A stretch of 64,000 nucleotides of DNA from Psychroflexus curvus (GTDB taxonomy: Bacteria; Bacteroidota; Bacteroidia; Flavobacteriales; Flavobacteriaceae), in contig NZ_JAIQZF010000003.1 of the NCBI RefSeq assembly GCF_020164585.1, forward strand, positions 62,001 through 126,000, written 5' to 3'. Shown here piece by piece: positions 52,201 to 56,009 of the stretch; the first letter of the stretch is position 1; each line of letters begins with the position of its first letter. Made by a program: the position numbers and the translations under genes. The notes under the pieces were generated by a model. That model did no database searches. It saw only the letters and a list, made by a program, of their open reading frames with translations, and was not told the origin of the DNA.

Positions 52201-52218
52201 GATATTTGTGATTTTATA

Positions 52219-52249
52219 TTTGGTAAAAGTATAAAAAGAAATATATTTG
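52219..52249 (+). promoter_or_regulatory. Promoter of the tRNA-Arg/GIY-YIG array
   Basis: TTTG (52219-52222), a 19-nt spacer and TATATTTG (52242-52249) match the consensus exactly. The start point would fall about 6 bases before the first tRNA-Arg fragment at 52262. No comparable promoter is seen before the intact tRNA-Arg 1.1 kb downstream, so this looks like its displaced original promoter. Confidence 0.8.
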
Positions 52250-52368
52250 CACTCCCAAAAAGGCCTCGTGGCCTGCCCGCCTGAAATTTCAGGCGGGCGC
52301 AACTGAATACCCGCCCGAGCCGAACGGAAGTTAGTCTCGTTCGGGCGGGGCGCATAGAATTTTTAGAC

Positions 52369-52625
52369 ATGTTTTATGTTTACGTTCTTTATAGTTTTAA
52401 ATTTGACAGATACTATGTTGGAATGACAGTACGCCTAAAATAAAGATTGTCTGAACATAATCAGGGAAACACAAAATCGACTAAAGCTTTTGTTCCCAGG
52501 ATCATAGTTCATCAAGAAGTTTTTGAAACACGCCTTTTAGCTAGGTCGAGAGAAAAATTTCTCAAATCAGCTGCTGGAAGGAGATGGATAAAAAACACAT
52601 ACGGCCTTGTGGCTTGCCCGAATGA
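52369..52625 (+). pseudogene. GIY-YIG endonuclease gene, unit 1, inactivated
   Basis: Aligned with the intact copies at 52736 and 53104, this copy has a GAA-to-TAA change after CVG..AVR..LK-equivalent residue 24 (codon following cta aaa), a nearby GAA-to-GTA change, and a one-base deletion in the A-run before the C-terminus. The rest is almost identical. It is the promoter-proximal copy and also carries the simpler hairpin insert, so it may be the oldest unit. Confidence 0.88.
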
Positions 52626-52735
52626 ATGTTCAAGCGGGCTTGCCCGAATGAATGTTCAGGCGGGCGCAACTGAATACCCGCCCGAGCCGAACGGAAGTTA
52701 GTCTCGTTCGGGCAGGGCGCATAGAATTTTTAGAC

Positions 52736-52993
52736 ATGTTTTATGTTTACGTTCTTTATAGTTTTAAATTTGACAGGTACTATGTTGGAATGACAGAACG
52801 CCTAAAAGAAAGATTGTCTGAACATAATCAGGGAAACACAAAATCGACTAAAGCTTTTGTTCCCTGGATCATAGTTCATCAAGAAGTTTTTGAAACACGC
52901 CTTTTAGCTAGGTCGAGAGAAAAATATCTCAAATCAGCTGCTGGAAGGAGATGGAGAAAAAAACACATACGGCCTCCTGGCTTGCCCGAATGA
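52736..52993 (+). CDS. GIY-YIG nuclease domain protein, unit 2
   Basis: An 85-residue single-domain GIY-YIG protein. The start is ATG 52736 (MFYVYVLYSFKFDRYYVGMT), where VYVLY and YYVG are the GIY and YIG motifs; the catalytic Arg is probably in TERLKERLSEHNQG, and the motif-3 Glu may be in VHQEVFETR. The domain is of the UvrC N-terminal/UPF0213 type. The last codons (RPPGLPE) are read from the tRNA-Arg fragment and hairpin of the next unit. The upstream in-frame extension through the tRNA fragment is not a real start. Function in target cleavage is inferred. Confidence 0.85.
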   Translation: MFYVYVLYSFKFDRYYVGMTERLKERLSEHNQGNTKSTKAFVPWIIVHQEVFETRLLARSREKYLKSAAGRRWRKKHIRPPGLPE

Positions 52994-53103
52994 ATGTTCA
53001 GGCGGGCTTGCCCGAATGAATGTTCAGGCGGGCGCAACTGAATACCCGCCCGAGCCGAACGGAAGTTAGTCTCTTTCGGGCAGGGCGCATAGAATTTTTA
53101 GAC

Positions 53104-53361
53104 ATGTTTTATGTTTACGTTCTTTATAGTTTTAAATTTGACAGGTACTATGTTGGAATGACAGAACGCCTAAAAGAAAGATTGTCAGAACATAATCAAG
53201 GAAACACAAAATCGACTAAAGCTTTTGTTCCCTGGATCATAGTTCATCAAGAAGTTTTTGAAACACGCCTTTTAGCTAGGTCGAGAGAAAAATATCTCAA
53301 ATCAGCTGCTGGAAGGAGATGGAGAAAAAAACACATACGGCCTCGTGGCGCAACTGAATAG
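53104..53361 (+). CDS. GIY-YIG nuclease domain protein, unit 3, ending inside tRNA-Arg
   Basis: Identical to unit 2 up to residue 79 as far as I can read. The final codons (cgg cct cgt ggc gca act gaa tag) lie inside the intact tRNA-Arg gene, so gene and tRNA overlap by 23 bp and the tRNA D-loop provides the stop codon. As in the other units, the coding start lies 14 bp after the third tRNA fragment piece. A short endonuclease gene linked to a tRNA it interrupts suggests homing-type spread; this is an inference. Confidence 0.86.
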   Translation: MFYVYVLYSFKFDRYYVGMTERLKERLSEHNQGNTKSTKAFVPWIIVHQEVFETRLLARSREKYLKSAAGRRWRKKHIRPRGATE

Positions 53362-53412
53362 CGCATCTGATTACGGCTCAGAAGGTTGCAGGTTTGAATC
53401 CTGCCGAGGTCA
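53339..53412 (+). tRNA. tRNA-Arg(ACG), intact
   Basis: A 74-nt tRNA: acceptor GGCCTCG pairs with CGAGGTC (one G-U), D-stem GCGC/GCGC, anticodon stem TCTGA/TCAGA with loop TTACGGC (anticodon ACG), T-stem GCAGG/CCTGC. It has no visible promoter of its own and lies at the end of the GIY-YIG array. Its 5' 23 bp also encode the end of the unit-3 GIY-YIG protein. A terminator follows 14 bp later. Confidence 0.96.
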
Positions 53413-53426
53413 CAAAATTACTACTT

Positions 53427-53533: not shown

Positions 53534-54478
53534 TCAAACCTCCTTTAAATACATCGAAAGGCAGTAGTCAGCAATATCAAAATCCCTTTCTTTTTCTTCT
53601 TTTGTCGATTTTAAGTGAAGCAAATCCGAAATTTCATAAAAATTTGAAGTAGGCAGATTCTGAATTTTTGACCTCCATAATTCATATTTACCCGCATCTG
53701 GAAACAGGATAATGTCTCTGTTTTTAATCTCAGAAAGCATTTTGTAAGTCAAATTTTGGCAACTACCGATAGCTAGCCATAAGAAATCAGGCATAAACGT
53801 AGACATTAAACAGGCTGTTTTCTCGCTTTCAACTATTGCAATTTTTTTGGATCTGTAATCTCTCAATAGATGCAGCCCGAAGGGGACTTGTTTTAAGTTG
53901 AAATTATCTTTATTGTTAATTGAGTGATACCAATTTTGCATTTTAGGTAACCTTTTCCCCGTCTTTTGATCATATTTCATGATCTTACCTGTTCTCACTC
54001 TTAGGTTCTGATCTACTTGCCAAAAGATGGTGCTACCTTTTAAGTATCCTTTATTATAGGTTCCCAGATTATATAGTTCTATCCACTTATTTACTTCATT
54101 ACGGCCAAGGAGCTTACTAAAGAAGATTAGAAATTTGTTGTCGTAAAAATTGGTCTTATATTTTGTGATTAGGTCTGTATGGTAATGACTTATCTTATCT
54201 TCTTGATTTTTGACTTGCTTTAAATCAATATCAGGCTGTTTAGGTTCTTGTCTTTTACCTTGTGTGGTTTGTCTGATATTATCTCTAAAATACTCTCTTG
54301 GAGGGTAGTGGTAACCACATTTATTTGTGTTGTTACATATTCCAACATTTTCAGCAATATGACGCTGGGTATGTAAATCTACATATCTTGTAAATTCATT
54401 TTTTTTTTTACATCCTGGACATCTGTATCTTGTATTATCACCCTTATAAGGCTCTAATGTATATCTGTAATTATTCAT
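53534..54478 (-). CDS. Zinc-finger/Toprim primase-like protein (DUF6371-type)
   Basis: A 314-residue protein with an N-terminal zinc-binding region (YRCPGCKKKNEF about 18-29 and NVGICNNTNKCGYH about 44-57, four cysteines) and a Toprim-like C-terminal part (KIAIVESEKTACLMSTF about 210-226; DIILFPDAGKYELW about 253-266, with the DxG-type acid). Such proteins are primase-like components of Bacteroidetes plasmids and integrative elements. It is the last gene of the minus-strand island and follows the P4-type helicase gene, across a gap with an inverted repeat. Confidence 0.8.
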   Translation of the reverse strand: MNNYRYTLEPYKGDNTRYRCPGCKKKNEFTRYVDLHTQRHIAENVGICNNTNKCGYHYPPREYFRDNIRQTTQGKRQEPKQPDIDLKQVKNQEDKISHYHTDLITKYKTNFYDNKFLIFFSKLLGRNEVNKWIELYNLGTYNKGYLKGSTIFWQVDQNLRVRTGKIMKYDQKTGKRLPKMQNWYHSINNKDNFNLKQVPFGLHLLRDYRSKKIAIVESEKTACLMSTFMPDFLWLAIGSCQNLTYKMLSEIKNRDIILFPDAGKYELWRSKIQNLPTSNFYEISDLLHLKSTKEEKERDFDIADYCLSMYLKEV

Positions 54479-54497
54479 TTTAAAAAGTTTTGTTTTT

Positions 54498-54545
54498 AAC
54501 TACATTATCTACACGGTCGACCTAAATAATGTAGGATATGTAGTT
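54498..54545. repeat. Inverted repeat with central GGTCGACC: candidate origin or operator
   Basis: AACTACATTATCTACA on the left and, on the other strand from the right, AACTACATATCCTACA form an imperfect inverted repeat. It is centred near the perfect 8-bp palindrome GGTCGACC (54515-54522). Several CTACAT/ATGTAG units occur in it. It lies between two replication genes, where an origin or autoregulatory site is expected. Confidence 0.5.
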
Positions 54546-54557
54546 TATATTAAACTT

Positions 54558-56009
54558 TTATTTTTTTTGGATATAAAAGGACATGCCAGCTGATTGCCGT
54601 ATGTTTTCATACCCAAGTCCTTTCAATCTTTTTGATAATGTGATCTTAGAACATACCTTATAGCCATTGGATAGACAGTAATTTTTAAAATTTAAAAATA
54701 TATCCATAAGGCTCATAAGGTCAACTGACTTTTCATATTGACATTCCTGTAAAAACATCTTTACCGAATCACTATCCAATTCAAATTCATCAGAAGCTTT
54801 TTGAGATTTTTCACTGTAAGTAAATTCCTTATTCGCATAAAGTCTTAGCATCCCATTAATAATCCAGTTCAAAACACCTGACAATTCATTATTTATTATC
54901 TTTTGAGCCAATCTCTTATCCTGATCTTTCTTTGCAATTGTCTTTTCAAATGGGATGATTAGATAACGTCTGAAATAACCATTCGTATATTCGTTTTTTT
55001 TGGGTAAATCATTACAGTTGAACATTAATTTCGCATAATTTTTTATCTCATATACGTCTTTATAAAGTAATCGAGAGTCCACTGGCTCCCTAGATACAAG
55101 CTTTTTGAAAATATCAAAAGAGCCTATTTCTCCTGCTTCACTTGAAAAATTTAGGAGTTTGTCCTTAATTTTAGCTCTTGTATTAGGGTTTGTAGTTAAA
55201 TCCTGAACTGGATAGCTCGAGAAATTAATAGACCCTAGCAAGGCTTGTATGACTTCAAAAATGACACTTTTTCCATTGGATCCTCCTCCATACAAGAACA
55301 AGGCCTTCTCAAATTTTATATCGTTTGAATTGATAAAAATACTTCCCAAGTATTCACTGATGATTTTTTGAAGTGTTTGATCTGGAAGAACTTCATCCAA
55401 AAATTCCTGGAAAATTGGCGAGTCCGCTTCAGGCGCAAAATCAAAGTCCAATTGGTATAATAAAAAATCTTCTTTATCAAAAGCTCTTAATTTTAAATCT
55501 TTATTATCTATCTCTAATGTCCCATTTCTCAAGTTGATTAAGTTTTTCTTCGTTTCTGTACTTGAAACTGAAATAGTTCTAGTCTTAAATTGTTTTAAAA
55601 GGTCTTCGGAGAATTTAAAGTATTGAGATTTAGTTTTTTTAATACCAGTTATTTTAGCACCTTCAGTCAAAAAAATCATTAATTCGTCAATACATAGTTC
55701 AGACCAGTAACATCTGTTGAATACGTAAAGCTTATCCTGAAAATTTCTAAAGTCAAATTCTAGATCTTTTGATTTCTTGAGAATCGTATTTACAACTATA
55801 ACCTTGTACTCATATTGTTTTATATATTTCTCTTCCGAAACAGCTGCCTCAGTCACAAAACTTATCGGATCAAGATTATCTAGAATTTTATCAAGGATTT
55901 GAGAATTTGTTTTCGATTGTCCTGAAAATTTCACTTCTTCTGAAACTAAACTATCTAAATCAACTTTGGAGTTTTCTGGCAAAATATTCTTTTTGTTTTC
56001 TCTATCCAT
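54558..56009 (-). CDS. P4-type primase/helicase (phage/plasmid DNA replication, SF3)
   Basis: A 483-residue protein related to the D5/P4-alpha helicases of phages and plasmids. Residues about 85-200 form the D5 N-terminal-like domain; the SF3 helicase has Walker A in FLYGGGSNGKSVIFEVIQAL (about 235-254), LLNFSSEAGEIGSFDIFKKL (about 280s) as B/B' region, and AKLMFNCNDLP with sensor Asn (about 325-335). RRYLIIPFEKTI is the arginine-finger region. It would start replication of the element; the primase active site may be in the Toprim partner. Confidence 0.88.
   Translation of the reverse strand: MDRENKKNILPENSKVDLDSLVSEEVKFSGQSKTNSQILDKILDNLDPISFVTEAAVSEEKYIKQYEYKVIVVNTILKKSKDLEFDFRNFQDKLYVFNRCYWSELCIDELMIFLTEGAKITGIKKTKSQYFKFSEDLLKQFKTRTISVSSTETKKNLINLRNGTLEIDNKDLKLRAFDKEDFLLYQLDFDFAPEADSPIFQEFLDEVLPDQTLQKIISEYLGSIFINSNDIKFEKALFLYGGGSNGKSVIFEVIQALLGSINFSSYPVQDLTTNPNTRAKIKDKLLNFSSEAGEIGSFDIFKKLVSREPVDSRLLYKDVYEIKNYAKLMFNCNDLPKKNEYTNGYFRRYLIIPFEKTIAKKDQDKRLAQKIINNELSGVLNWIINGMLRLYANKEFTYSEKSQKASDEFELDSDSVKMFLQECQYEKSVDLMSLMDIFLNFKNYCLSNGYKVCSKITLSKRLKGLGYENIRQSAGMSFYIQKK

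Follow-up and report, generated by a model that had tools for sequence, protein, structure and literature searches.

Hairpin-broken tRNA copies and tandem GIY-YIG genes at a Psychroflexus tRNA-Arg gene: an apparently undescribed family of putative selfish elements that home to tRNA genes

The tRNA-Arg(acg) gene of Psychroflexus curvus stands at the end of a row of short GIY-YIG genes, each preceded by a piece of that same tRNA, and the locus raises the question of whether such a row is a local accident or the trace of an element that homes to tRNA genes and leaves a working tRNA behind. In what follows, the window is the whole 64,000-nucleotide stretch of DNA that was analysed, and the array features lie on its forward strand. 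The array holds three units, spaced at 367/368 bp, that run into the intact tRNA-Arg(acg) (53339..53413, from a tRNA call). Among its ~300-nt repeats, two copies have 85% and 98% identity to the third, far above chance, in agreement with an earlier sequence-only reading that had described near-identical units, at 368-bp spacing for two of the three. That reading had taken each unit to be the first 28 bases of tRNA-Arg, a 14-bp leader and a GIY-YIG gene; the array and the complete tRNA at its end stand, but the copy is not contiguous and the leader is 13 bp long (52356-52368 in unit 1, with equivalents in units 2 and 3). Each unit consists of a broken copy of tRNA-Arg(acg) nt 1-28, the leader, an ATG (52369, 52736 and 53104) and a GIY-YIG gene, and two palindrome-bearing inserts, one following nt ~11 and the other separating nt 22 from nt 23, split the copy into 11, 11 and 6 nt. 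The 94-bp copy block of unit 1 (52262..52355) has a predicted fold with two strong hairpins (-55.5 kcal/mol, z -5.56), and the gene that follows (52369..52596) is a pseudogene, as had been proposed, with a stop after 24 codons. Repeat comparison placed the 120-bp copy blocks of units 2 and 3 at 52603..52722 and 52971..53090, the latter overlapping the end of the unit 2 ORF. The ORFs of these two units (52736..52993 and 53104..53361) encode 85 aa each and match PF01541 at ~1e-12 in both cases; that of unit 3 reaches 23 nt into tRNA-Arg, which supplies its last codons and stop. No ORF other than GIY was found inside the window units, and tRNA-Arg(acg) has one other match in the source genome, a 79% identical tRNA.

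We take TAnnTTTG to be the promoter consensus. Two such boxes, TATATTTG at 52242..52249 and another at 52215-52222, lie within 60 nt upstream of unit 1, and none was found in the 100 nt upstream of the window's intact tRNA-Arg. From this distribution of boxes, the window tRNA-Arg probably depends on transcription that reads through the GIY genes from upstream of them. Such dependence would not be general across loci in which the copies precede the tRNA, and a box was present before the intact tRNA in 5 of the 13 other loci of this kind that were examined (both Cys loci, L118, L115 and L008). Directly 3' of tRNA-Arg, at 53534-56009, the window carries genes of a type found in integrated elements (DUF6371/Zn ribbon; D5_N/DUF5906).

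The sequence-only reading predicted that related genomes would show an empty site with a promoter directly before tRNA-Arg, and sites of this kind, promoter-like box included, were found in sister species. In one sister genome (G004), the apt-tRNA-Arg locus lacks a GIY gene. The 40 nt preceding the tRNA are identical to those of the window, and the likeness continues to tRNA nt ~11, which is the start of the window's first palindrome; many differences appear farther left, in apt. The first 300 bp 3' of tRNA-Arg are nearly identical in the two genomes, the opposite flank being far more divergent. Filled and empty sites coexist in the genus at three tRNA genes. The 25 Arg-acg loci comprise 3 with GIY, 17 clean empty sites, 2 empty sites at contig ends, 1 carrying just a 3'-end piece and 2 without an acg tRNA, and a TAnnTTTG box lies at most 60 nt upstream of the tRNA in 17 of the 18 usable empty Arg loci. 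At Phe (25 loci) we counted 7 with GIY, 3 with GIY remnants, 6 with the copy only, 5 clean empty and 4 empty at contig ends; at Asn (22 loci) there were 8 with GIY, 9 clean empty, 1 at a contig end and 4 with the copy only, two of which rest on 11-12-nt copies that are possibly due to chance. For Arg-acg, Asn and Phe, filled genomes carry the same intact tRNA sequence as empty ones. Near two tRNA-Arg(acg) genes of the genus (L073:1575-1700 and L077) lie 17 nt that repeat the 3' end of tRNA-Arg (t59-75) and resemble an attachment site of an integrase-type element.

How widespread are these arrangements? Homologues of the window protein were present in 36 of 60 relatives, and a manual count found a tRNA near the GIY gene in 29 of 40 stretches hand-picked from the homologue list. 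A profile, A1, matched 196 of 295 class genomes at 1e-8; it was built mainly from tRNA-linked relatives of the window protein, so that the linkage percentages given here are rates for the best-ranked relatives and not for all GIY-YIG genes. The class set consists of 70 best-ranked loci from 69 of the 196 matching genomes, the window's own among them, the numbers differing because one array of genome G166 was entered twice (L123, as a miss, and L180, as a match). A same-strand tRNA gene lies within 500 bp in 59 of the 70 loci, 56 of which additionally carry a partial copy (at least 13 nt) of that tRNA. The set spans 19 anticodons, not 20, since the twentieth ('Phe', L128) was a false call on a tRNA-Ala copy and was dropped. 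ARAGORN calls within 500 bp of the class loci were on the same strand in 70 cases and on the opposite strand in 2, some of these calls being hairpin-bearing copies. In the control, for which the top-scoring PF00589 (tyrosine-recombinase) loci in 30 class genomes were taken, 0 of 30 were near a tRNA on either strand. In view of the 59 linked loci, the 19 anticodons and the control, the window array is no local accident. The proposal that short GIY-YIG genes be sought next to other tRNAs thus found many, with partial tRNA copies, and unit number proved variable as well, ranging between loci from 1 to 10; the longest arrays have 8 units in the source genome (C34) and 10 in G166.

The linkage extends beyond the class. 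A genome of 0.8 Mb (L219) has the window architecture at tRNA-Gln, i.e., hairpin-broken 5' copies, a GIY gene and the tRNA. In its phylum, which has small genomes and which we infer to be Patescibacteria, 105 of 145 genomes gave a match, and 23 of the 29 best-ranked loci had a same-strand tRNA within 500 bp (strands 26:0), 15 of the 23 with pieces of at least 13 nt. Same-strand tRNAs within 500 bp were lacking in 11 of the 70 class loci and 6 of the 29 second-phylum loci, some of which are at contig ends. A scan with the Met-type alignment yielded 17 loci. Six of its eight Bacteroidota loci adjoin tRNA-Met(cat), three of them in genomes new to the set, one adjoins tRNA-Pro, and one, a short 33-residue match, adjoins no tRNA. 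Of eight loci from Acidobacteria, Verrucomicrobia and Omnitrophica, four have a tRNA at 100-275 bp and four have none within 500 bp; no tRNA pieces of at least 11 nt were found at the four that adjoin a tRNA. Rfam, applied to 12 loci, reported two ordinary tRNAs and nothing further at gathering scores.

The elements occur in two polarities. In the 5' type, copies of the 5' part precede the intact tRNA, as in the window; this type is found at Arg, Cys and some Leu genes, and in the second phylum also at Ser, Gln, Pro, Ile and others. In the 3' type, the order is the intact tRNA with its terminator, the GIY gene and then a copy with the exact tRNA 3' part; Asn, Val, Met, Phe, Ala, Asp and other tRNAs are occupied in this way, and 63 of the 84 rows of the GIY tree are labelled 3'. 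The sequence-only reading held that the element brings its own copy of the tRNA 5' part and thereby leaves an intact tRNA at the junction. A carried tRNA part is supported, but the 5' end is not the only side, and the copies are hairpin-broken. They match the host's own tRNA, and those of the 3' type often hold a copy of the host's own terminator: the 40 nt beyond the copy are at least 80% identical to the host terminator region in 28 of 49 loci (a set that includes one wrong reference, L120, and one sequence with N, L166), whereas comparison with other loci that have the same tRNA gave means of 0.44-0.72. Copy length ranges from nearly the whole tRNA to short ends, and several GIY ORFs terminate inside tRNA sequence.

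Several loci depart from these two plans. At L118, tRNA-Arg(acg) is flanked on both sides by hairpin-broken copies with the hairpin at 22|23 in each. Tandem hairpin-broken copies with no GIY gene between them occur upstream of tRNA-Asn (L043:463-711, 83-bp units) and tRNA-Met (L048, reverse, 248-1134, and L101:484-1030; 127-bp and ~110-120-bp units), and these are perhaps non-autonomous relics. In the window's own genome, eight GIY units (G000:C34:6890-9830, L031) begin at the 3' half of tRNA-Met without its 5' half, and the intact tRNA-Met is on another contig (L101), as though a break at the anticodon loop had been followed by relocation of the tRNA. ARAGORN labels some hairpin-bearing copies tRNA-SeC or tRNA-Phe (L058, L059, L128), which makes them a source of false tRNA annotation.

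We examined the hairpins in 52 clearly interrupted copies, i.e., those in which a script found two collinear pieces. A stem of at least 6 bp was present in 45 of the 52, compared with 20% of shuffles. For several tRNA kinds, the place of the hairpin recurs across genera (22|23 in 5'-type Arg, 25|36 in Asn, after CATA in Met and in the T-loop of Phe and Cys), while the palindrome itself differs between species. Asn has two hairpin places, matching two separate GIY clades, and Ala, Asp and Arg-tct have two or more each. In sets of hairpin strings picked and trimmed by hand, 56 of 60 pairs in Val and 65 of 66 in Met were Watson-Crick, values reached by 7 and 2 of 2000 shuffles, respectively, and two-sided changes keep the pairing in both sets; the Asn and Arg sets were uninformative on pairing (226 and 1302 of 2000 shuffles). 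The Val copies keep the anticodon-arm fold despite changed letters. The palindromes were also considered as marks unique to the element, an idea ruled out because one of them, CCGCCTGAGGCGGA, occurs at 15 listed places in the window's genome that include terminator-like and repeat stretches as well as tRNA copies.

The GIY tree followed the kind of tRNA: 41 changes of tRNA kind were needed, compared with a mean of 64.9 after shuffling, and 0 of 200 shuffles was as low, in a tree with few columns, 41 open forks and target changes within clades. (The tree omits one row labelled Phe(aaa), treats two 'SeC' calls of ARAGORN as Val, and retains the wrong label of L128.) Eighteen of 20 CAT-anticodon rows form one clade, and 5 of the 6 Leu rows form another that includes both polarities; the Ala, Asp, His and Cys rows do not cluster. 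The GIY protein is under purifying selection, with dN/dS of 0.06-0.24 in the five divergent pairs that yielded a dS value. Three pairs yielded none, and a near-identical pair of Val genes within a single genome gave 0.69 on very few changes. In one pair of genomes, G001 and G008, spread has gone beyond host divergence: a 255-nt stretch of the Asn GIY gene shows zero differences, compared with 78% identity in the upstream 600 bp and 80% in apt, which argues for recent transfer of the element. The intact tRNA and the T-arm of the copy are host-type in both genomes, so that the shared block falls short of the whole donor tract that simple homing predicts.

The tRNA genes are the main places where such elements reside but not the only ones, because a sister GIY clade, flanked by 12-13-bp inverted repeats (L037, L068), sits inside protein genes. 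The L037 gene interrupts a 23S_rRNA_IVP gene at profile position ~45|48, and the L068 gene interrupts a gene with a HATPase_c_4 domain. By eye, L021 and L022 resemble these two, and related GIY genes ending in RLKSYFTG, KNYLTG or TNYLKG, with inverted repeats at their ends, occur at L037, L021, L022, L068 and L052.

Taken together, these findings point to an apparently undescribed family of selfish elements homing to tRNA genes, and we consider it probable that the elements home by break repair, inserting at a tRNA gene and restoring the tRNA as they do so. This reading is based on the anatomy of the loci, empty and filled sites, remnants, clades that follow the target, purifying selection, an identical element in divergent hosts and recurrent hairpin places. 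Features of homing elements that are present here include a nuclease ORF with conserved residues under purifying selection, empty and filled alleles, and target-specific lineages. With respect to loss of the recognition site on insertion, the leftover copies are hairpin-broken and the intact tRNA is unchanged at Arg-acg, Asn and Phe. The cutting, the cut position, the manner in which the copy is regenerated and the role of the hairpins are inferred parts, for which one could envisage the following. A stand-alone GIY-YIG domain of about 80-100 aa would cut a set region of one kind of tRNA in an element-free gene; at the empty tRNA-Arg locus, a candidate position is in the D-arm, near CAACTGAATA|GCGC. 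Recombination repair from an element-bearing copy would then insert the leader and the GIY gene. Since parts of that tRNA border the element (the 5' part in the window; elsewhere the 3' part, often with the terminator), one junction would regenerate an intact tRNA and the other would leave a partial copy. The palindrome in that copy may mark the former cut site and may make the copy poor to cut or recombine, and unequal recombination between direct repeats would add further units. Unlike in classical homing, the supposed target would not be destroyed, since the intact tRNA of filled genomes equals that of empty ones. The same identity rules out a recoded, cut-resistant tRNA, so that protection of the intact gene must come from context, low expression or repair.

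The nature of the protein bears on the most serious alternative. AlphaFold2 modelled the window protein (unit 3) as a single GIY-YIG domain with a mean pLDDT of 93, the tRNA-encoded tail scoring low, and the model has no separate DNA-binding domain. Y, Y, R, H and E, the catalytic residues of this fold, do not vary in the A1 alignment. With a single domain of about 80-100 aa, the proteins are UPF0213-like, similar to BH0048, which is the nearest solved relative by profile (2.5e-14), followed by SLX1 (8.7e-7); by fold, 1zg2 (UPF0213; E 1.1e-3) and SLX1 rank above I-TevI, with no match reaching E 0.001. One could therefore envisage a structure-specific nuclease of the SLX1/UPF0213 kind that cuts the hairpins or cruciforms of the copies and in this way drives array expansion and spread, specificity residing in the flanking homology and not in the protein. 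The ranking of BH0048 and SLX1 ahead of I-TevI, the single domain, and the presence of hairpins with conserved pairing in most interrupted copies all accord with such an enzyme. Protein clades track the kind of tRNA, though, which points to sequence recognition, and the tRNA of an empty site offers no starting palindrome, so that we regard this explanation as unlikely.

A role at the RNA level is more doubtful still. The GIY protein might act on, or be controlled by, the tRNA or its tRNA-like copies, either as a toxin with a decoy RNA or through RNase P/Z processing of a shared transcript. The termination of several GIY ORFs within a tRNA, the lack of a promoter-like box in the 100 nt upstream of the window tRNA, and the anticodon-arm fold retained with changed letters in the Val copies would suit this idea. 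Against it, the copies differ widely in extent, some being nearly whole tRNAs and others short ends; mobility better explains the empty sites and the element unchanged across two species; and GIY-YIG domains of known activity cut DNA. Two further alternatives have very little to recommend them. Plain tandem duplication of a chance neighbour of tRNA-Arg agrees with the near-identical units and their constant spacing, and amplification by unequal recombination probably does happen in the array, but as the whole explanation it is refuted by the 19 anticodons of the class set, the second phylum, the empty sites and the 0/30 controls. Finally, that the units are passengers of integrase islands using tRNA genes as attachment sites is scarcely credible, given that the window units are ~0.37 kb long with GIY as the only ORF, that one polarity sits at the tRNA 5' side and that the units here lie outside islands, even though D5_N/DUF5906 and DUF6371 genes follow the window tRNA-Arg.

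Returning to break-repair homing, we tentatively consider a stronger version in which the elements are natural bacterial 'home-and-rescue' gene drives. The element would cut an essential tRNA gene and carry the missing piece, so that only converted cells keep a working tRNA; the hairpin copies would be armoured, uncuttable targets whose shape is kept by selection, and the system would extend to most tRNA kinds in at least two phyla. If the elements do home to tRNA genes by break repair, the tRNA genes of many bacteria house the smallest autonomous homing elements known to us (a gene of ~0.25-0.3 kb plus tRNA pieces), which would explain the presence of numerous short 'GIY-YIG nuclease family' genes as well as of degenerate tRNA arrays. 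The SegB story, considered below, would then reach from phages to chromosomes, and the elements could serve as models, taken from nature, of gene drives of the rescue type and of very small nucleases that target tRNA genes.

How do these elements compare with known systems? Tyrosine-recombinase elements that target tRNA genes regenerate the tRNA from a carried partial copy. The units described here share this property, but they have no recombinase, occur at either tRNA end and are hundreds of bp long; their ORFs are GIY only, and a search of the rest of the window for att-like sequence, meaning exact copies of 13-21 nt from the 3' end of the tRNA, found none. UPF0213 and SLX1 provide the nearest solved sequences and folds, and UPF0213 is likewise single-domain, but we know of no UPF0213/SLX1-type nuclease that is mobile or tRNA-linked. 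No paper naming two of GIY-YIG, UPF0213 and YhbQ was found in the open full-text literature. NCBIfam and PHROGs (0.01) offered no family for two tested members (83-85 aa). Phage carriage was considered and rejected: the window protein had no match among phage sequences, and a viral_contigs scan with A2 confirmed 0 of 25 candidate stretches. The Met-type protein matched 8 distant, unannotated phage records (33-38% identity) and 6 distant 'plasmid' records.

The sequence-only reading knew of no described element of this type. Among the matches listed from the open full-text literature (preprints and most subscription papers lie outside it), we likewise found no description of chromosomal tRNA-linked GIY-YIG elements; the idea stands less alone than that reading supposed, though, in that tRNA genes are cut by a phage GIY-YIG enzyme, SegB (PMC13096335). 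The closest precedents are SegB and the fungal mitochondrial mORFs. In the account cited, SegB of phages T4/T6 is a free-standing homing endonuclease whose cuts fall within tRNA genes; it is found alongside tRNAs of many isotypes, drives tandem repeats of tRNA and segB, and has the motif RAWTSGAAC; microhomology exists between the tRNA 5' end and the segB 3' end, and its authors pose the same question of how an intact tRNA survives (PMC13096335). By our own reading, this motif corresponds to the T-loop complement; since the Phe and Cys hairpins lie in the T-loop, this would fit hairpins that mark a former cut site. A GIY-YIG gene joined to a tRNA, many isotypes and tandem tRNA-nuclease repeats are common to both systems. 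SegB is a phage gene, whereas the elements here are chromosomal; the two tested proteins are 83-85 aa long without a PHROGs match, and the clades follow tRNA kind. Palindrome-broken tRNA copies are characteristic of the present elements and do not figure in the cited passages on SegB (PMC13096335). Searches of phage families and phage records, rather than a head-to-head comparison with SegB, did not place the elements in its sequence family. The mORFs occur in Allomyces atp6 and in Glomus atp6, atp9, cox2 and nad3; each is an endonuclease ORF inserted in a gene together with its own copy of the gene end, which gives a working gene and leaves the native end behind. They are described as homing to protein genes through double-strand break repair that restores the gene, and one mORF endonuclease is GIY-YIG (PMC3630166). 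Here too, a partial duplicate of the target gene flanks the nuclease ORF and an intact copy is present, its function as a tRNA being presumed. The mORFs reside in mitochondrial protein genes, in contrast to the elements described here, which occupy bacterial tRNA genes, at either end, and carry palindromes in the leftover copy.
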